A stretch of DNA of 64,000 nucleotides from Paralichthys olivaceus (Eukaryota; Chordata; Actinopteri; Pleuronectiformes; Paralichthyidae), in contig NC_091097.1 in the NCBI RefSeq assembly GCF_024713975.1, positions 4,748,361-4,812,360 of the forward strand, read 5' to 3'. The notes below the pieces were generated by a model. The model was not told the DNA's origin and ran no database searches. It saw only the letters and a program-made list of their open reading frames with translations. Below, piece by piece: positions 11,685 to 60,105 of this stretch. The first letter of the stretch is position 1; each line of letters starts with the position of its first letter. The translations under genes were made by a program, and so were the position numbers.

Positions 11685-12377
11685 TAACTGGATATTACCA
11701 GGAAACATGTATGAGCCTATATTTTGAAAATAAGCCCCCCCCCCCTATTGTTATAGAATGTTACCAGGAAGTCTGTACAGAGCCTATATTTTGAAATGCC
11801 CCCCCCCCCATAGTAACTACTAGATATTACCAGGAAACATGTATGAGCCTATATTTTGAAAAAAAGCCCCCCCCCCATAGTAATAGTATGTTACCAGGAA
11901 GTCTGTAAAGAGCCTTTATTTTGAAAAAAGCCCCCCTCCCCCCATAGTAATAGGATGATACCAGGGAGCTGGAAAAAAAATGGATTTTCAAAATAAACCC
12001 CCCAGATAGTTACAGGATGTTCCTAGGAAGCCTAAAAAAGGCTGGACTTTCAAAATAAACCCCCCCAGATAATTACGGGATTTTCCCAGGATGCCTGAAA
12101 GATGCTAGATTTTCAAAATGAAATCCCCAGATAGTTACAGAATGTTCCCAGGAAGCCTGAAAAAGGCTGGACATTCAAAATAAAAGCCCCAGATAGTAAC
12201 GGGATGTTACCAGGAAGCATAAAAAAGGCTTGACTTTCAAAATAAAAACCCCAGATAGTTGCGGGATGTTGTCAGGATGCCCAAAGGAGGCTGGATTTTC
12301 AAAATAAAAAACCCAAATAGTTACGGGATGTTCCCAGGAAGCCTGAAGGAGGCTGAATTTTTAAAATTAAATCCCAT
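11685..12377. repeat. Minisatellite, about 11 copies of a 61-67 bp unit
   Basis: Each unit holds GGATGTTACCAGGAAG-like sequence, a GCC-T--ATTTTGAAA or GGCTGGACTTTCAAAATAAA segment, and a C-run followed by ATAGTAA or AGATAGTTA. Units start at about 11691, 11758, 11824, 11889, 11954, 12015, 12079, 12139, 12202, 12263 and 12324. The left copies have longer C-runs and longer periods than the right copies. Confidence 0.9.
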
Positions 12378-13401: not shown

Positions 13402-13731
13402 TTAATTAAAATTACATAAAAGAAAAAGCCAAAAATACAAAGTGCTACATGTAAGTGCAACTTGACTTAGACCACCAACACCTGCTGTTTGGGTGGGTGT
13501 CGGGAGTTGAAGTATCTTCTGGAAAGAAGAACACAAGTTTCTTTGTATCTTTTGCAAGTTTTCTATAGCACTTGTTGTCTCATCCATCTTCAACACAATG
13601 TCATTGTTATTTCTGGAGCTGAAGTTTGACTGTTGCTGCAGCTGACAGTGTGGCTTTGAGCTGTGTGGAGGAATGGACTCAAATGCTGCCGCTCCTGCAA
13701 TTTTACGATATTGATCTTGGCTTCCATGAGC
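13402..13731 (-). CDS. Overlapping open frame, possible alternative or true C-terminus of the coiled-coil gene
   Basis: This frame is shifted relative to the main coiled-coil exon. It opens at 13731, just after a TGA at 13732-13734, and runs to a stop at 13402. It is open alongside the last 140 bases of the main frame and then continues about 190 bases further. The product contains FESIPPHSSKPH, then KMDETTSAIENLQKIQRN and SSFQKILQLP. Its polar, helix-friendly composition resembles a real C-terminus more than chance sequence. A one-base indel, a sequencing error or an unseen splice could join it to the main frame. It has no ATG of its own before 13584. Confidence 0.35.
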   Translation of the reverse strand, partial: AHGSQDQYRKIAGAAAFESIPPHSSKPHCQLQQQSNFSSRNNNDIVLKMDETTSAIENLQKIQRNLCSSFQKILQLPTPTQTAGVGGLSQVALTCSTLYFWLFLLCNFN

Positions 13732-16123
13732 TCAACACTGTATTTCTTATTTGTGGCCCTTTCTTTTTTAAGAGCATTGGCAAAACGAATGGTTCTCGTC
13801 TTTTCTGTTTCAAGAGTGGAGGCAATGTTTTTACTTCTCTCCTCCAAGACAGCCTCTTGTATCTTCTCCTGATTAAGGGCATTTTCAAGTTGGACCTGTC
13901 TAATCTTGCTTTCTGACAGTTGTTCTCTGAGCTCATAGACTTTATGTTTGAGCTTAGCATTGATGGCTTGATTCTTCAAGATGATATCATCTTTCTCTGC
14001 CAGGACTTCATGCTGCTGTGCGAGACCTTTTTCCATTTGAACCACTAGCTGAACCTCCAAGGCTTCTAACTTACCCCTGATATACTTGTTATCCATCTCA
14101 AGTGTTTCCATGTCATACATCAGTGTCTCTACGGATACTGGGGCTTTCTTTAGCATCTTTATTTTCTTACATGCTCGCAAGAACTGGGGTTTCTCCTTCT
14201 TTGCTTGTTCCGCAAGTCTGCTGCAAGCTTTTCTGTCTTCCTGGTGCTGCCGTGCAGCATCCTCCAGTACCCTCTTGTTCTCACAAGCAAGTTGATGATT
14301 TTCCTGGATCAGATGGTCCAGTTTACACTGCTGGGAGATGGCAGCCTCACGAGCACCCTGCATCTCACGTACAGCGTCCTTCAGTTTACCTTGTAGCCTC
14401 TTGTTCTCAGAGGCAACTTGGTCATTATGTATCATCAGGTTGTCCAGTTCAGCTCTGTCTTCCTTATGCTGGTTCATGGCAGCCTCACGAGCAAGGCACA
14501 TGTCAGTTCGAACATCCTCCATTTCGTCTTGTACCCTCTTGTTCTCATAAGCAAGTTGGTGATTTTCCTTGGTAAGATGGTCCAATTTACACTGCAGGGA
14601 GATGGCAGCCTCATGAACACATTGCATCTTACGTACAGCATCCTCCAGTTCACTTTGTAGCCTCTTGTTCTCAGAAGCCAGCTGGTGATCTTTGTGATCC
14701 TGGTTGTTTTCCCCTGACCTCTTAAAATCAGCCATATGTGCCTTCATAGCGTCTTTTTCTGTTTGCTCCTTCTTCAGTACTTTTTCCATTTGAGCTTGAT
14801 CTCTTTTTACATTGTTCACATTCTCTTCAAGAGCAGTTCTGGCTCCACTTTCTCTCAGAGGGGCTTTTTGTAGATCAACTTCACATGACAGCTCCGATTT
14901 TCTGAGCTGTGAAACATAAAACAATTATTAGTTTGTTGTTCATTAAAATCAAGTTCCTCAAGTGTAGAGTCTGACAAGCTTCTCAACATATCATTCCCTG
15001 AAGCCTGAATTATAAAACAATTATCGTTTTGTTGTTCCTTAATGTTTATGTATGTCCTTAAACAATATTTGTAAATTTGCATATTTATCAAACCATTAAC
15101 ACGTGATTGAGATGAATTACACATCTAAAACTGAATGTTTATAACAAAAGATTATAATTTACAAATTAATTATTATTTAATAAATAAGTAATTTATTTAC
15201 ATTTTGTGATTGTTGTCATTTCAAGTCTAAAGTCTGTAGGTGTGTCTTAGTTAAAATAAGTAATTATCTGTGTGTATGAGTCGTTTATATCTTTTTGTAT
15301 CTGAAGACACACACTTACCTTGTCAGCATCAGAGGGAGGGTCAAAATCAAGTTCCTCAATGCCATCAAGAGTAGAGTCTGACAAGCTTTGCAACATATCA
15401 TCACCCGAAGCCTGAATTATTAAACAATTATCGGTTTGTTGTTCCTTCATGTTCATTCTTAAACAATGTAGCTGAATAAACTTGACAAAATTACAGGTAA
15501 ATAATACAATCAACACAGAATTATTAAATTTGAGTTAATAATACATTAGTTATTCTTGTGTACAAGTTGTTTATATCTTTTTGTATCTGAAGACACAAAC
15601 TTACGTCGTCAGCCTCAGTTTCCTCATCATTATCATTTATAATGTTCTGAAGAGAAGAGCCTGACCAGCAAGGCAAATCCTGAAACATAAAACAATTTTT
15701 AGTTTGTTGTTCATTCATGTTTATCCTTAAACGGTATTTGTAAATTTGCATATTTAGAAAACCATTAACATGTGATTTTACTTGTCTGCTTGTGTAGCTT
15801 AACAAACTCGACAAAATTACAGGTAAAATACAGACAACACAGAATTATTAAATTTGAGTTCATAATACATTGAAAGTAATTAGATGAGTTACACATTTAA
15901 AACTGAATATTAATTACCAATATCAATTCTAACGTCTGCAACTGTATCTTACTCAAAATAATTAATTATTCATGTGTACGAGTTTATATTTTTGTATCTG
16001 GAAATACACACTTACCTCTGAATGTGTATCCTCAAAGTCAGAGGGATAGTAAGTTTCCTGCGTACATTTCTCTTCTATATTTTTCTTAGTGTCCTGAAGA
16101 CAATAGCTCAGCAAGGTATCCAT
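13590..16123 (-). CDS. Unrecognised long coiled-coil protein, four coding exons
   Basis: I do not recognise this family. Exons, high to low: 16016-16123 (start ATG at 16121-16123), 15605-15679, 15319-15411 and 13590-14906. All are phase 0 with GTAAG donors and CAG acceptors, and would encode about 530 residues. The N-terminal exons are acidic and serine-rich (LSDSTLDGIEELDFD type). The last exon is almost entirely charged heptad-rich coiled coil with no membrane segment. It contains repeated HQLA-ENKR blocks of about 42-46 residues and ends in KKERATNKKYSVELMEAK. The start is uncertain: the first exon is open upstream to about 16280 without an ATG, so a further 5' exon may exist. A myosin-tail-like or golgin-like scaffold is possible, but coiled coils are poor evidence of function. 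The 3' end is doubtful because a second frame (13402-13731) overlaps the stop and also looks protein-like. Confidence 0.65.
14205..14687 (-). repeat. Internal coding repeat of the coiled-coil protein
   Basis: Four successive blocks begin with variants of HQLASENKRLQ, at residue spacings of about 42 and 46. Blocks 1 and 3 resemble each other most (ELEDAVRKMQ / KLKDAVREMQ, AAIS-QCKLDHL). Blocks 2 and 4 share the QHKEDRA / QHQEDRK variant. This suggests duplication of an 88-residue two-block unit, with a deletion in the last block. Confidence 0.75.
14908..16015 (-). repeat. Tandem exon-intron cassettes in the coiled-coil gene
   Basis: Three to four diverged copies of a roughly 300-400 bp unit are present. 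Each has a GTAAGTTTGTGTC-like or GTAAGTGTGT-like donor, an AT-rich intron with GATACAAAAAGATATAAAC-type sequence, a GAACAACAAACT-ATAATTG block before the acceptor, and usually one short exon. Shared intron blocks are visible at 14911-14945, 15005-15060, 15413-15465 and 15681-15735, and near the donors at 15200-15318, 15484-15604 and 15813-16015. Introns and exons were clearly duplicated together. Confidence 0.75.
14940..15005 (-). pseudogene. Degenerate extra copy of a 5' exon of the coiled-coil gene
   Basis: The minus strand reads ASGNDMLRSLSDSTLEELDF after a CAG acceptor. This nearly duplicates the functional exon at 15319-15411 (ASGDDMLQSLSDSTLDGIEELDF). The copy has lost the exon's 3' half and its GTAAG donor: it runs directly into sequence that is intronic in the sister copies. 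Reading through into the main exon is out of frame, so I infer it is skipped. Confidence 0.6.
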
Positions 16124-18880: not shown

Positions 18881-19318
<438 letters not shown>

Positions 19319-38422: not shown

Positions 38423-40939
38423 TCACAGGGGCCCATGTCGGGCCTCGTATTTAGCCACAATGTTCTTGCAGCGACCCAGCTCCTTCCTCAAGTCCGCTAC
38501 CTCCATGCGGAGAGCGGCGTTCTCCTTCTCCAGGAAGCCGGCACGAATGGCGATCTGGTTCTCTTTCAGCCGCCGCGCGTCCCGTGACCGCTTGGCCGCC
38601 ACGTTGTTCTTTCTGCGCCGGGCCCAGTACCTGTCATCCTGAGGAGCAGAAAAGAGCGGGTCAGGACATTTTAAGAAGACCCTCACCTTTTCAAGGTTTT
38701 TTACTTTCCCCTTTTCAATGACTGAGACGTCCAACAATCAGGACTGACGCTGCGAGGAAACCATCGTACAGTTATTGACCTTTCATAGCGTTAATGTTTG
38801 CCAATACGAAAACTTTAATTTTCCAGTTTCGACAATCGGAGCTGGTTCCATTGCGTATCATGTCCATAACAAATAGTAGTTTATTATCATTATACATTTT
38901 TAGATGTTTACAATAATTCATAAAATATTTACAAAAATGTTTCTAAGATGTTCATCTTGTTTTTTTTCTTAGTTGAAGCTGCATTTGTGTTTTGTTTTTA
39001 TTTATATTTATTAATGCTACGTTTCTTTGTCATGGGTTTGATAACGACATTTTAGGAATCTGTGCGAAAACACAGCCTCAGACATCAAAGAGAGAGACCC
39101 ACATAAACCCCTCCCCTACTCCCGCCCTGCGTCACCTTCAGGTCCTCTGGGATGAAGACCTTGCGGGCTTTTTTGATCATGGGCTGTGGCTTCAGCTCCT
39201 CTGCAGAGAACTTGCGTTTCCTGGGATCGAACATTTCCTGGCCAGGCACGCTGGACAGCGCCAGGTCCGCTGGGTCAGGCTCATAGGCCATGGGCACCTG
39301 AATGGACTCTGGGTCGATGGGGCTGGGGGTGTCCCGGGATGAGGGCAGTGCTGCTGAGGAGAAGAAGAAAAGGGCATTTATTCTTTTGAAAGAAAAAGGT
39401 GTGCAGAAAACATGTGCATTTTATTTTCCTTTGTGCATTTTTGCTTTTGATTCCCTGAAGTTTGTGTTTCCGTGCTTTAGTCTATTCACTGTGTTTATAC
39501 GTTTTTTTTGTGACTTTGCTTCATTTGCTGTCCATCAAAACAGGATTCCTGGTAAAATAAATCACACGCCAGACACCTTAATGGCTCTATATTAAAGTTC
39601 CAGGTGGCGTTATGATTGAGGCCTCATCTGCAAATCCTTTCTGCGACTCTTTCAAAGCTGGACAGAGGAGGAGCAGCAGTGGTTACCCCTGCTGAGAGGC
39701 CTGGGGGGGGGGAGCTGAATGCTGCCTTTCTTCCCTCTGAGCTCACATGTTTGTGTTTGCAAGGGCTGATCCTTGAAGAAATGTCAGGCCTGATCGTCTG
39801 CACCGACGTTAAAGCTCAGGAGCAGGTGACACAACTTTACTGGAAAAACAACATTTGTCCCGTTCAGAGAGGCATGTCTTGAATCTGACCAGCAGGTGGT
39901 GCTATCACACAAGCTTTAAAAACCGGTAAACAATGAACCATTTTTATCTCATCTTCACTCTGCAGGTATCAGCCACCCTGATCTCAAACCAACAGATTCT
40001 GCTGCTGCACGTCTTTACAAACATTACTCTGTTATTCTTTGCAATCGCACTAATTTGTATCGGACCAAACGGACATTACCAAACCTACGCTACCCACACT
40101 GTCTGAGGAAACGACAGAACAAGAGTGTGGTGGGCATTTTCCCTCAGTGCTGATCCTCAGACAGCTTGTACATCATGACCTAGATTTCTGAACTTGCGAG
40201 CCTGCCATTACGGCCCTGCTGCTGACTTTCGGTGTGTGCATGGGCGAGCCGCTCTTTGCGTTTGACTTGCGGTGGAGATTGGAGAAGGGGCCCATCAGAA
40301 ACAAACGGCGAGTCAGTCTGTACGCTGTCTGCCAGTGAACACAGTGTTCGAAAAAAGCTATGCACAAACTATTAAAGCCTCCAATTATCACCTCATAAAA
40401 CTGAGCACAAAGGCAAAAAAAATCCCCAAAGAGAACATCACAAATGCAACGACTCTCTCATACACACGCCATCACCAGATGTAGATGTCACGGTTCACTG
40501 CACACAAGCAGGGCCGGGTGCGGTTTGAAGTTCCTCGCTGAGATGACAAAACGATGACTTTATTAATAACGTATTAATAACACGGGTTTTCTACAAGACA
40601 ACTATCAAATGCTGAACTGAGAATGTGGTCTCAGTACGAAAGAAGGAAAGTTATTGGATCTCAGTTTTTAATTTCAGACGTGAACAATCTGCCGATTATT
40701 CTTAGAATCAAATTATTAATTGTTTAATCCTAATGTCAGAAAACAGTGAAACTTATACATCACAATTTCCAAAACCCAAAACCTTTTATCAGGAGGTTAT
40801 CTGGGCTACTGCACAAGTTGTCAAGCAATCTACCACCACTTTAAATTATTATTGGATAGATCAGTTTATATTTTCAAAATAATTTTTATTGTCAAATGTC
40901 TCGTTTTCAGTCTGAAACAAACAAACAAACAAACAAAAA

Positions 40940-43900: not shown

Positions 43901-46428
43901 TGCAGCGTTTACAATAGCTCATCAAGGTTCCTTCCTTCCTAATCTTGAAACTCAAATACACGTTGCACAAAGTGTGTGCGGTGGGGGCACACCAGCTGGG
44001 GAGATCTACAAACATCGCTTGGCACAAACAGACCTAACTCTGCTCATGCTATGGGACATTGTGTTTTGTGGCTCTTTCGAGGGAGCAGTCTATAACAATG
44101 AGCACACAGGATCGGTCACATTTCATGTAATTAAAGTGATAAATGAACCGGTGGCGTGGCTGTCATCAGGTCGAAATGAGTCCTTGAAAAGGTTGATGAG
44201 AGGACTGTGATGAATCACCACTCATCCTCCATTATCATTCAAACTGTCGAGTCTTTAATCGTCTCTGAGGTCAATACACAGCAGCACAGAGGGTTAATCC
44301 GACTGAAGGTGAAGTGGAGTGAATGTTTAACATTTACACCAGGAGCCCACCTCCACAGTGTTTACAGGTAAAACACACATAAGCAGAGTATTTACCATCA
44401 TCTCACACACATACATACATACATACACACACACCCCCCATGAATCCAAACAACCCATCTGTTTATCTCTTATGTATCGTCAGATCTTTTGCCAGGAGGT
44501 GTTTGGTGTCAAGTATGGATGCGAAACACGAACCATATGCAGTGGTGTGGTTGTGCTTGAATTCGCTCTGTTCATGTTCATCCTGAAGATCTGCCCATCT
44601 TTTATGAGTCAAACGGTTCAGGTTTCTGGTGAATTGAAAACCTAAATGTCATCTGGCATCGGCCTATCAAACTCAGACTCACAGTTTAATGGTACACTCT
44701 AAATGTCAGCTGCTTACTAAATGCCACTTCATTGCGATGATAATATTTTCAATAGCAAATGGCTGTTTGATGAGAGAAATACTGGAACTTTGTACTGAAA
44801 TGTTACGTCTGTAAAAATAAAATAATCGGTCTTGCATCTGCTTTTAGCTTCATAATACAGCTCCAGCTCTGAAACGATGCATTCAGGGACTCAGGACACA
44901 AACCACAAGGACTGTGCTCTCTCTTAGCCTCTCAAGACTCTCACTCTGATGTTGGATGGAAGCTGTGTGTTTGTGTATCAGTGTAGACCACAGTAGGGGC
45001 GTGAAACAAGCGTGTGAACCCATCTGTGCATGTGTCCCTGCGTGCAGGTGTGACTTCAGGTGCACATTAGGCTCCGCTGCATGTGCTTCCTACCTGCTGT
45101 GCTGGGGCTGTGGAGGCTGGTTTGAGGTGCCATGCCCGTGTGAACCGAGGTGGTGGCGCGGCTGCTGAGGTCCACCACGGAAGGTGTGGGCGGGGCGGGT
45201 GGCGGGGCCTGCTGGAGGGGCGCCTGCGGTTGCTGCACCGCCTGCTGAGCCTGGTTGCTCTGGGCCGTGTTGGCGGGGATGCCATTCTCCGACAGGAACT
45301 CCTCCAGGTCCATGTACTCCAGCTGAAAGTTGTTGCCATCGTAGGGCAGGGTCTTGTCCCAGAGGGTCGGTCCGAGGAAGGCCGACTGTGGATCGCTGGC
45401 TGCGCTGCTCTCATCGTCCAGCTTCTTCGCCTTCTCTTTTTCTTTCCCAAATCCTGTGAATGTTTGCACACAGTCATTTTCATTGTCTCAAGCAGAGGAG
45501 GATCAGGGGTCAGTGCACGGGCAGAAATAGAAAGTAAAACTGCGGTTTTAACTCAAAGGTTCAATTTAACCAATTGACCAAAAAATACTAAAATGCTATC
45601 AGATCAGATCTTTAGATGTGCTGCAGTGATAGCTTTACATCCACCTTGTCAGAACACTTAGCTTAAATAAAAAGTTATCTGTGTGGCTAATCAGTAAACA
45701 ATGTGTTGTTATTTATTTGAAATTAACCTTTAAATCTGAAATCAGGTCTCCATTCATGATCAGATGGTGCAATGACACTCAATACATTCAACCAACGCAA
45801 ACAGAGGGTGGACTGCAAGCACTGACAGCTGACGAGCAGAAAACACGCCCTCTATCGGCAGCTAGTGCTATCGCTAATGTAAATCCCACTGAAGACCAGA
45901 GGCTTTAAAAGGTTAGAAACGCACCTGGTAGCTAAAAACAGCGCAGTCACAACAATCACGCATGAAACCGCGACGCTTATTTGATAAGCAGAAGCTAAAA
46001 TAGCTTCCTAGCTTGAGCTGAAGTTTACGTCCAGCTGTCAGCGCAGCAACATTTTACAGAGACGAGCCGCATCTGTCTTTTTATTCCATCTCTGCCGCCC
46101 ACACATCAATAACATTACACTGTCTCATCTTCCGCAGAGATCGCAGAGTGCGAAGAGGAGTCACTGCCTGTTGCTCCAGTCCGCCCCTCACTGCGCGGTT
46201 ATCGGTCTAAGTCACGGGTGCGAGCAGGATGAAAACAACAAGCGGCGGAGGGAGCACCGCAGAGAAGCCGAGTCAAGCGAAGCGTTGACCCGGGTGAAAG
46301 CAAACACACGTACCGTCATCGTGGTGGAAAGGCAGCTTGAGCGGGTTCTCCAGCAGAGACTTGAGCACGCCGTGAGTCGGCGGCAGGAACGCGGGGTTGA
46401 CAGCAAGAGGTCTGGCCATTTTCTCCAT
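38423..46428 (-). CDS. hlf: Hepatic leukemia factor HLF, PAR-domain bZIP transcription factor, 4 coding exons
   Basis: HLF binds D-box sites as a homo- or heterodimer with DBP/TEF and gives circadian and liver-type transcriptional output (family knowledge). Exons, high to low: 46314-46428, 45094-45453, 39136-39353 and 38423-38638, all in phase, encoding 302 residues. Exon 1 gives MEKMARPL and [15 protein letters not shown]. Exon 2 gives [24 protein letters not shown] and [18 protein letters not shown]. Exon 3 carries [33 protein letters not shown] and the PAR domain through [13 protein letters not shown]. Exon 4, from residue 232, has the basic region [20 protein letters not shown], the leucine zipper and the family-typical end YEARHGPL. 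Those ends and VFIPEDLK separate it from TEF and DBP. A glutamine/proline-rich stretch ([20 protein letters not shown]) replaces part of the human exon 2 linker. The long third intron (39354-45093) holds only repeats and unassigned sequence. Confidence 0.97.
39354..45093. other. Large hlf intron between coding exons 2 and 3
   Basis: Holds an (ACAA)n / poly-A / (AT)n compound tract (40919-40972) and a purine-rich G/A tract (43190-43280, GGGAGGGAGGGAGGGAGGA). No nested gene with usable splice sites was found on either strand. Confidence 0.55.
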
Positions 46429-47419: not shown

Positions 47420-47713
47420 ATAGATAGAACTATAGAACGATAGCTGGAACGATAGATGGAACAACAGATGGAACAATAGATGGAACAATAGATAGATTGA
47501 AAAATGGAACAACAAATAGAATGATAGATGGAACGATAGATGGAACAACAAATAGATTGATAGATCGAAAAGTAGATGGAACAATAAATAGATTGATAGA
47601 TGGAACGATAGATGGGAACAACAAATAGATTGATAGATGGAACAATAGATGGAACAATAAATTGATTGAGAGATGGAACAATAGATGGAACAATGGTTGG
47701 AACGATAGATGGA
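47420..47713. repeat. GATAGATGGAACAA-type minisatellite
   Basis: GATAGATGGAAC and AATAGATGGAACAA alternate with ACAAATAGATTGATAGATG for almost 300 bases, apparently grown from a GATA tract. The minus strand is open in three frames through it because of the short period; the frames encode only SIY/FHL repeats. Confidence 0.9.
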
Positions 47714-50700
47714 ATGCGAACATTTCTGGTTTCTTCTGTCATGTGCGATATGTTGCAATCATGCATATACAGGATAAGTTCCTCCAAAACTACTGGTATC
47801 ACACATTTCAAACAGAGACGTAACTTTACTGTTTCTCTCTGTAAACCTCTGCTGTAAATCTGAGCAATAAGGAAACAATCCAGTGTTGTGCCACAGTGAA
47901 GCATGACGTGAATCTAAACTTGACCTACTTTCAGCCAATGGTTGTTGTCAGGCTGCCATTCTAGCTTCGCAGGCCCTGGCACATGCAAACTCATGCTATT
48001 GAGAACAGTAGTGGCTGAGTCATAGTTTAAAATCCTGGTTGCACTCTCCCATTCCCTCGTTTTCAATGATTAATGAATCTATGTCATCAGAACCACATAA
48101 TTCACCTGCACACGCACGCACGCACGCATGCACGCATGCACACACACACACACGCGTGCGAGTTGCATGAGGAGAAGGATTGTGCAGACATGGATGCAGA
48201 CCAGAGTAGGACAAACTGTTTTATCTGAAACTATCCCCATGCCTATGAAAATGTCACAGCATATCAAACCGCACATCTTATCTTGCGAGCCATGACACTG
48301 CTCTATTTTGAATTTTGCCTTTGACATTTTGAATCTTCATGAGAGTCTCCAGGAGCTCCACGCTGGTGTTTGTGATTCATTGTCTCAGTTTTTAGTTGTA
48401 GTCCACATATTTTGGACCCATCCCCAAATAGTATAATAGGATGTGACTGTATATAAAACCTAAAACAAACAGACTAAAGCAACTTCTGGTATCACATACA
48501 CAAAAATAGAGCAACACTCAGTAGAGTGTCTATCTCTCCCAAGACCAAACAGTGGGATTCATACAGTATTTTCTAAGAAATTGACAAAAATGTCCGCTCT
48601 TTTGTCCTGATTAATTTTTATCGTATGGTAGGTGGTGACATTTTATCCAATTTAACCTTTTCTCACCTTTATTTTTATTTTACTTTCTTTTTATTTGTTT
48701 TTTCTTTGTGTTGCATTTTATAGATTGAACTATATAAAGTTTATTACAATTTTTTAATACAAATATACGTTAAAAATGTGCAAGTGATCATTATCCTCGG
48801 GATAATAGTCAAATTCATAGCATGATGAGTCTCTGAGGAGTTTCAGGTTTTAATGGGTTCATGTGAGACACTGCGGCTATTCAAAGAATATCGTGAACAA
48901 AGGAAGCTGCGCTGCTCTGAAGACAGATAAAGGCCAGAGTTCATGTATCGATGGGTTGGACTGAACCCAAACAGCTGCAGGTGAACGGATGAACTTCAGA
49001 ACATTCTTCAGTCTGCAGCTGTGGGGCTTTCGTTCAGTACGAGAATGGATTGTTTTTAACTGTAATGAAAGAAAAAGCTATGCCCAAAAAAAAGAAAACT
49101 GTGACGTACTAACAGAACAAAACATGCATTGTATGAGAGCGCTCAGCTGAACGGAGCGGAGTGGCCCCGGATCACTGAAAACGGGTTAGTCAAGGTCACA
49201 GAAAGACAAATTCAAAGAAATTCAGCCACACTTAAAAAATTTGATTTCAAACTGTGACAGTAGACTACAAAGAGTTTTGTGTGGAGGTAACAGCTCCTCA
49301 GTTTCGGTGGCAGTTCTCCATATTTGTTTCATGTTAGTTGTGCGGACAAAGACTTTTTTTTTTACGTGGCCGTGTCCTTTTAAAGTCCTACAAGAAAGCG
49401 ATAAAAGATCACGTCCTCACCAGATAGAGATCAGCTCCGATCATTTTCCTGGGTTCATCTTCACATTTGCTATAGCGAAGGTTACAAGAAAGTTTCGCGG
49501 CATGTTATGCAAGAGTTTTCTTCTGCTAATATTGCAAAAAACCTTCCCACAACAACATTGTCAGAGCTTTTAGGGAACATTAGGAGCTGTTGTTTTTGTG
49601 TTCTTTTCTTTTAGCCAACTGCAGCTTGGGTGCACACTTCACATTTAAATATATGCAGAGCTGTCTAATACTGAGAAGTGTGACATTGCTCACTAATTAG
49701 TCCTCCTCAGCATAGTTCTTTACACAGGAGACAAACATCTGTCAAAGGAAACTATACTGAATTTGTTGAGCATCATGGAAACATGTTCAGTAGGAAAAAA
49801 AAAAACGTCTGTTCACCTCCATTTTGTTTTGGATGTTCTTACAACTTCACAGTCTGATATCTCAAAACCTGGACACATGAAAACCAAAGTATCAAAAATG
49901 TTGACCCAAATTTTGACACAATTTTGACAAGAGTTGCTAAAAAATTCCATAGATATTCACTTTCCTCTTTATGTAACAGAGCCTAGCCTAATTATGGCCC
50001 AGGTCATTATGTCCTCTAGACCATTAAGTCTGACGTTGATTTGACAGTTTTAAAACTCAAACCTGAAATAGTTTAATGTACAATGCTGCTGTAAATCACT
50101 TTCTTATTCAGAAAAAGCTCCAACTCTTTTATTTCCATTCATGTTCACACCCAGGACATGTGTCGTCAAAAGTGTATGTCGATGTCACAAAATGCTGTTA
50201 AACCCTTATAATGTTATAATAGGATGTTATAATGTAACTAAGAAGTATGTCTACATAATGCGACTTATTGCTAATTCTGTGTATGACCTTATTCAGGTTA
50301 ATATCAGAATATTGGTGTCCATATCAACACAGTCACTGTAAAAACCTGCACACAAACACAACTGTCTCTGCGCTCAGCCAACATTATACATCACTTAACT
50401 GTTTACTCAGAGCACATGCTTTTTCTGAAAATCTACCATTGGCTTAATTGGCTATAATTTTCTTTCATCCACATATTACTGTCACATTCTTTTTTTCTGC
50501 ACAGTTGCGGAGTCTTCGAGTTGCGTGACATAAAGTCTGAGTCAAGATGCATTAGCTCATCGGGTATGTAGACACACACACACACACACACACAAATTTA
50601 ACAAGTGTCAAATATACAAAGAGAATCAAATGACACACGTCCTAGAAATGTTTAAAAAGGTGATTATTAGTGGAAAGTTGCTTTTAAAGAGGTTCAGTAA

Positions 50701-59045: not shown

Positions 59046-60105
59046 AACACTTTATTAGGTACACCTTGCTAGTACCGGGTTGGACCCCCTTTTGCCTTCA
59101 GAGCTGCCTTGATTCTTCGTAGAATAGATTCAACAAGGTCCATATTGACGTGATAGCGCAGTTGCTGCAGATATGTTGGCTGCACACCAATGATGTGAAT
59201 CTCCTGTTCTACCACATCCCAAATGTGCTCTATTGGATTTTGATCTGGTGACTGTAGAGGCCACTGGAGTACAGTGCATGTTCATGTTCGAGAAACCAGT
59301 TTGAGATGATGTGAGCTCTGTGACATGCTGCATTATCCTGCTGGAAGTAGCCATCAGAAGAGGGGTACACTGTGGTCATAAAGGGATGGACATGGTCAGC
59401 AACAATACTAAAGTAGGCCGTGGCATTTAAACGATGCTCAATTGGTAATAAGGGGCCCAAAGTGTGCCAAGAAAATATCCCCCACACCATTACACCACCA
59501 CCACCACCCCCAGCCTGAACTGTCGATACAAAGCAGGATGGAGCCATGCTTTCATGATGTTTATGCCAAATTCTGACCCTACCATCTGAATTTCGCAGCT
59601 AAAATTGAAACTCATCAGACCAGGCAACGTTTTTCCAATCTTCTATTGTCCAATTTTGGGTGAGCCTGTGTAGCCTCAGTTTCCTGTTCTTAGCTGACAG
59701 GAGTGGCACCAGGTGTGGTCTTCTGCTGCTGTAGCCTATCTGCTCCAAGGTTCGACGTGTTGTGCGTTCAGAGATGGTATTCTGCATACCTTTGTTGTAA
59801 CCAGAGGTTATTTGAGTTACTGTTGCCTTTCTATTATCTCAAACCACTCTGCCCATTCTCCTCTGACCTCTGACATCAACAAGGCATTTTCGTCCACACC
59901 ACACTGGATATTTTCTCCTTTTTGGACCATTCTCTGTAAACCCTAGAAACGGTTGTGCGTGAAAATCCCAGTAACCCAGACTTATGTCACCTTATTGAGA
60001 AGAAAATCATGACAGAAACATGTGACTCTGACAAGAGAGCCTAATTGGCTGAATGACATAATGTTTGTCTTTAGAGGGGAGCTACAGGTACCCTTCTAAT
60101 ACGTG
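59046..60105 (-). mobile_element. Decayed Tc1/mariner-type DNA transposon
   Basis: The left end begins CACTTTATTAGGTACACCTT at 59048, a terminus I know from a very common fish transposon. A diverged inverted match (AGGTACCCTTCTAATACGTG) lies at 60086-60105, giving about 1.06 kb. Sequence typical of the family continues from the right side to about 59985; the last 120 bases are less recognisable, so the right boundary is tentative. The left 700 bases encode transposase fragments on the minus strand. Confidence 0.8.
59050..59910 (-). pseudogene. Tc1-like transposase pseudogene
   Basis: The minus strand encodes helix-turn-helix-like TISERTTRRTLEQIGY, then WSDEFQF (first catalytic aspartate), VMVWGIFSWHTLGPL and YFQQDNAACHRAH (second aspartate). 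Near 59275 the homology moves to another frame, where a SPDQNPIEHIWD block (third acidic site) follows. In-frame stops are at 59839-59841 and 59599-59601. The element therefore cannot make an active transposase. Confidence 0.85.

Follow-up and report, generated by a model that had tools for sequence, protein, structure and literature searches.

The window, the whole 64,000-nt stretch of DNA analysed here, carries on its minus strand a gene in which short acidic exons precede a single large coiled-coil exon. It corresponds to C5:4748361-4812360 of its genome, from which three sister genes have also been annotated in detail: C4a and C4b on contig C4, and C20 on contig C20. From splice-site consensus and its occurrence in the sister genes, the exons of the window gene are predicted to be joined as E1-E2-E3-E5. 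The features of the gene are as follows.

16016-16123, minus strand: E1, first coding exon; 108 nt, 36 aa, starts at ATG (MDTLLSYC...) and ends in phase 0
15680-16015, minus strand: intron 1; 336 nt, of a type common to all four sister genes read
15605-15679, minus strand: E2, acidic cassette exon; 75 nt, 25 aa, phase 0; the same exon occurs in the C20 gene
15412-15604, minus strand: intron 2; 193 nt, of the type of the 206-208-nt introns of the C20 array (88% over 208 columns)
15319-15411, minus strand: E3, acidic cassette exon; 93 nt, 31 aa, phase 0, of a type found eight times in the C20 gene
15005-15318, minus strand: intron 3; 314 nt, its counterpart being intron 2 of the C4a gene (85.5% over 297)
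14945-15004, minus strand: E4 remnant; acceptor retained, 9-nt internal deletion, exon end and donor gone
14907-14944, minus strand: residual intron tail before E5; 38 nt, 100% identical to the tail of the last intron of the C4a gene
13590-14906, minus strand: E5, single large coiled-coil exon; 438 aa and then TGA (stop at 13590-13592), with 264-bp internal repeats

The coordinates given for the three short exons in the initial annotation (15319-15411, 15605-15679 and 16016-16123) proved exact, at 93, 75 and 108 nt, and all three lengths are multiples of 3 in phase 0. Predicted donors read GAG/GTAAGT after E1, GAC/GTAAGT after E2 and AAG/GTAAGT after E3, and the predicted acceptors before E2 and E3 end in CAG. 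Acidic residues prevail in each exon, with D/E to K/R counts of 9 to 3 in E1, 8 to 0 in E2 and 10 to 1 in E3. Homologues of E1 are present in the three sister genes.

Elsewhere in the window, open frames at 18881-19318 on the plus strand and at 39085-39420 and 45056-45487 on the minus strand appear to resemble SMIM36 and a bZIP factor of the PAR class, for example HLF, and these neighbours presumably mark an hlf region; the frames gave no Pfam match above cut-off. An open frame at 59230-59598 on the minus strand, presumably a fragment of a Tc1-type transposase, gave no Pfam match up to E=0.1. At 47435-47714, a 12/36-bp tandem repeat lies within a minus-strand open frame of 197 codons.

Self-comparison of the window confirms that the tandem exon-intron units of this gene are real. 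Cassette pairs were recovered by self-blast with E values of 1.3e-29, 1.0e-24, 3.6e-24, 1.5e-22 and 4.1e-17. The three intron pairs reached local alignment scores of 52.5-109.5 against a null maximum of 32.0 (300 Markov resamples per pair), and three of the six exon pairs beat every resample: E1/E2 (19.5 against a maximum of 13.0), E2/E3 (16.5 against 15.5) and E3/E4 (37 against 15.5). The scores of the remaining pairs compared (E1/E3, E1/E4 and E2/E4) were not above all Markov resamples. Neighbouring exons and introns are thus homologous, as in phase-symmetric tandem exon duplication, with E1 and E3 not directly alike. The similarity of the units that had been claimed for the gene therefore stands. 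The unit size of about 300-400 bp was loose, since the units measure 444, 268, 407 and 98 bp.

The introns had also been described as being as similar as the exons. This holds, and within the window gene the exon copies diverge more than the intron copies. Among units 1-3, exons were more diverged than introns in 15/15 pairwise alignments under five scoring schemes, with a Fisher test below 0.05 in 8/15, these 15 comparisons not being mutually independent. MAFFT alignments gave the same direction in all three pairs of units 1-3 and in two of three pairs with unit 4 (one below 0.05); the E3/E4 pair went the opposite way, not significantly. Two classes can be distinguished among the four acceptor tails, one before E2 and E5 and the other before E3 and E4. 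The last 34 bases differ at one position between the tails of E2 and E5 (two extra bases before E5 left out) and at two between those of E3 and E4, against six to seven between the classes. Intron 2 is a mosaic whose start and end resemble intron 3 and whose middle resembles intron 1. Its diagnostic sites (22 shared with intron 1, 13 with intron 3) form nine runs (P=0.002), a pattern to be expected of a recombinant, which uneven divergence of intron 3 could nevertheless mimic.

To place the window gene in its family, the whole genome (588,085,608 bases in 25 contigs) was searched. Unit DNA gave at least 20 matches, all at five places, and the E5 protein at least 57. The four closely related genes are organized as follows.

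C4b, at C4:25.296 Mb: E1-intron-E5, no cassettes, E5 of 676 aa
C4a, at C4:3.14 Mb: E1-Ex-E3-E5, two cassettes, E5 of 679 aa
C5, the window gene: two cassettes plus the remnant, E5 of 438 aa
C20, at C20:17.22 Mb: E1-Ex-E2-eight E3-E5, ten cassettes, E5 of 1511 aa

Cassette number therefore differs among homologues within a single genome: the four genes carry 0, 2, 2 plus a remnant, and 10. As with E1-E3 of the window gene, the tabulated intact exons of C4a and C20 have lengths that are multiples of 3. In C20 the array comprises 8.1 copies of 299 bp with 98% matches. The first seven E3 copies are followed by introns of 206-208 nt and the last by one of 171 nt. Four of the eight E3 peptides are identical, and the remaining four differ from those at one to three residues. 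Variable columns in the array number 7/93 in the exon and 4/206 in the intron (P=0.039), counted without a 2-base indel and without the eighth, different intron. A second array, of 9.9 copies of 264 bp with 95% matches, lies within the E5 of C20.

Homology to the window gene extends into the 5′ flank of all three sisters and into the 3′ flank of C4a and C4b; the stretch of C20 compared took in almost nothing of its 3′ flank. Because homology runs on into the gene flanks, more than exons has been copied. Downstream of the window gene, at 11687-12375, lies a minisatellite of 62-67-bp units to which the C4b locus also matches. In distant members on C19 and C10, inspection by eye likewise shows a coiled-coil exon preceded by an acidic stretch with a donor and by an intron whose tail is similar. 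One distant relative (L046, C10:7.288 Mb) has an in-frame TAG in the acidic stretch, the frame again being read by eye. At C4:1.958-1.970 Mb, two giant coiled-coil open frames (L043 4939-9532, 1530 codons; L044 2752-7849, 1698 codons) lie next to each other and are distant relatives of E5; their upstream DNA is nearly identical by eye, and they are apparently a fresh gene duplication.

The fourth unit of the window gene illustrates the loss of a cassette. A decayed exon without a donor had been placed at 14940-15005; the decay is borne out, and its position is refined to 14945-15004. Unit 4 holds four GT dinucleotides, none of them donor-like. Aligned with the intact last cassettes of C4a and C20, it shows 164 and 166 gap columns, comprising a loss of 9 bases within the exon and a single gap of 155 or 157 bases that removes the 3′ end of the exon together with its donor and the greater part of the following intron. 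The idea that the gene grows and loses exons as phase-0 modules is supported both by these intact sister copies of the broken cassette and by sisters with 0, 2 and 10 cassettes, gain and loss being read here from the sister genes of one genome. By contrast, the suggestion that intron retention might be tolerated fails. If retained, introns 1, 2 and 3 would be read for 17, 26 and 23 codons, respectively, before an in-frame stop, and introns 2 (193 nt) and 3 (314 nt) are not multiples of 3. If the E4 acceptor were used, 98 nt would be added and the frame shifted, with a stop after 49 codons. The open stretch of 'EQQT-NC' type is the intron tail common to the copies.

Turning to the coiled coil, a single-sequence structure model of E5 gives helices at residues 22-237 and 259-408 (mean pLDDT 74.7, pTM 0.27). 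Searches with the window E5 found nothing above cut-off in Pfam (best ADIP, 18.8 bits against a cut-off of 34.3) or NCBIfam (best 15.7 against 65), and no match in the PDB up to E=1. Five family proteins encoded at other loci were scanned as well; two of them scored above a cut-off (DUF6061; TPR_12 and bCoV_NAB), though no single stretch did so by itself, and we read these matches as coiled-coil noise. Pattern matches to E5 in viral and bacterial contigs numbered 5 and 22, and none was confirmed as a homologue.

One explanation of such a protein is that the family is decaying, so that the window gene would be a pseudogene and its array idle DNA copying. The broken E4 fits this explanation, as does the E5 dN/dS near 1: six pairs gave 0.65-0.93 across a stretch of 200-201 codons and, across one of 54 codons with few changes, 0.94-2.75. 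The distance between sisters in intron 1 (0.065-0.110), a rough neutral yardstick, is close to the synonymous distance of E5 in the longer stretch (0.07-0.12). The C-terminal end would also count towards decay, as, compared with C4a, the other three genes have it shifted or short, unless it is the C4a end that has changed. Because the C-terminal frame of the window gene is common to C4b and, up to an earlier stop, to C20, it is not a private lesion; C4a has another, longer frame. In the window, the E5 frame ends at 13590, and another minus-strand frame within 13402-13731 continues without a stop to 13402 and looks similar, on visual inspection, to the longer C-terminus kept in frame by C4a. 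Against decay, E5 is open in all four genes up to the codon homologous to codon 415 of the window gene, although several stops would be expected under drift. The expectation, computed for a star tree at a flat rate and with the recent repeats of C20 counted as independent, is about 14.2 stops in the four exons, or about 7.9 without C20. As E5 was picked as an open frame, its openness is by itself weak proof. The gap calls in E1 are all multiples of 3 (5/5), against 5/22 in intron 1, the pairs overlapping, and the internal 264-bp repeats of E5 in the window (14260-14425 and 14524-14689) differ by a dN of 0.13 against a dS of 0.32 (P=0.053). On this evidence decay of the family appears unlikely. 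In the E5 alignments, 12/38 gap calls are not multiples of 3, and 10 of these belong to the final two gap calls in a pair, in the region in which the sisters diverge in C-terminal frame. The coiled coil appears instead to retain its frame, guarded across most of the rod, while its amino acids change nearly as fast as silent sites, the sequence being either loosely held or driven to change.

Comparisons between sisters give a mixed picture for the short exons, which are too short for codon-model tests and are therefore described by counts. E1 is more diverged than intron 1 in 4/6 pairs (one below 0.05) and E2 more than intron 2 in the one pair (P=0.064). For E3 against its own intron, the exon is more diverged in 2/5 pairs and the intron in 3/5. 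Two of the latter (both P=4e-5) involve C20 introns of a different type, and the third (C20 copy 8) is not significant. Exons evolving faster than introns may therefore be taken as a tendency of the window gene and the C20 array only.

The cassettes could also be mutually exclusive alternative exons that serve isoform choice, as in Dscam-like clusters, and in PMC9013439 mutually exclusive choice is described as often linked to tandem exon duplications. The intact exons, however, are all phase 0 and multiples of 3, so that joint inclusion stays in frame and exclusivity is not demanded. The eight E3 copies of C20 encode nearly one peptide, so that a choice among them would add little, and the C4b gene does without any cassette; taken together, we hold this reading to be distinctly improbable. 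That the repeated introns are mobile elements of the introner-like kind, having entered a single coding sequence at several points, is very improbable: the window-gene introns are more alike than most exons between them, but the repeats take in exons (E1/E2, E2/E3 and E3/E4 lie above all resamples), and the genome search (lower-bound match counts, common words skipped) found unit DNA at family places only and the same intron in no unrelated gene.

With gain and loss of whole cassettes as the preferred reading, the next question is how a first cassette might arise, and Ex of C4a and C20 offers a clue. This exon starts like E5, with LSDSELS and FSDSELS against LRKSELS (LRKSEPS in C20). Its first 24 nt match the E5 start of its own gene at 16/24 positions, a level reached at 0/6486 other E5 positions in C20 and 1/6486 in C4a. 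The 3′ part of Ex resembles E1, beating 500/500 shuffles in both genes that carry it. The lengths compared were picked after the likeness had been noticed, and Ex and E1 are both GA-rich, for which plain shuffles allow only in part. The best-matching stretch of the intron after Ex in C20 is 80-85% similar to intron 1 of the four genes. Among the other exons, none of 500 shuffles reached the score of E2 with E1 (in C20 and C5), of E2 with E3 (in C20) or of E3 with Ex (in C20). No direct likeness was found between E3 and E1, with 182 and 76 of 500 shuffles equally good. Ex thus resembles a fusion in which the beginning of E5 is joined to the final part of E1, the outcome expected of an intron-centred duplication.

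The family core is probably a short first exon, one intron and a giant coiled-coil exon, as in C4b. The first cassette may have come from a duplication that began inside E1, ended inside E5 and copied the whole intron; such an event would place a new exon between two intron copies, its 5′ portion derived from the start of E5 and its 3′ portion from the end of E1. Whole cassettes could subsequently be added or removed by unequal crossover between the similar introns. Such gain and loss stays in frame, since the intact exons are all in phase 0 with lengths divisible by three. The product may be a long, rod-like helical protein that presents short acidic segments at its N-terminus, in a variable number possibly set by that of the cassettes. 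As a whole, the model of an E1-intron-E5 core, into which phase-0 acidic cassettes are inserted with intron copies and then gained or lost by crossover, seems to us very probable from sequence comparison.

A broader proposal is offered tentatively, and we regard it as possible but somewhat doubtful. Intron-centred duplication would act as an engine for new exons, the like introns would serve as a recombination track, and the exons could diverge freely, at the neutral rate or faster. The result would be a fast-evolving, frame-guarded protein, perhaps engaged in genetic conflict, that grows by N-terminal cassettes and by 88-residue coiled-coil repeats. A protein with a kept frame and a hardly held sequence bears on the origin of repeat-rich coiled-coil proteins. 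Since one genome holds the two-exon core, intermediates, a broken cassette and eight near-identical copies, exon birth and the order in which the events occurred are directly testable.

A literature search, made without a gene name, found no publication on this gene family among the papers listed; several known systems nonetheless provide useful comparisons. As in snake three-finger toxin genes, the introns of the copies stay alike while exon parts diverge (PMC2474615). That family, however, consists of whole-gene copies encoding venom proteins, whereas the copies here are exons within a coiled-coil gene, and nothing suggests that the window gene encodes a toxin. Tandemly duplicated exons occur in about 10% of animal genes according to a 2002 study cited in PMC9013439, where NBPF20 is named among the genes with high values. 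The window gene shares tandem exon duplication with these cases, including NBPF, and differs from NBPF in that searches revealed neither an Olduvai domain nor any other named one in it. Tandem exon amplification is also known from teleost piccolo b (pclob), in which a zinc-finger exon has been amplified to 8-16 copies; in zebrafish the repeated exons all begin and end in frame 0. Single exons gained or lost change the copy number, and unequal crossover has been proposed (PMC3484663). The window gene is a further case of this phenomenon, in that one exon type has been amplified in tandem inside a fish gene as frame-compatible copies. While the pclob exons encode a zinc finger and are conserved at their ends and in their middle (PMC3484663), those of the window gene are short and acidic and are not consistently better conserved than the introns, which give long similar stretches. 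Unlike in pclob, the copy-number series here runs among sister genes of one genome.
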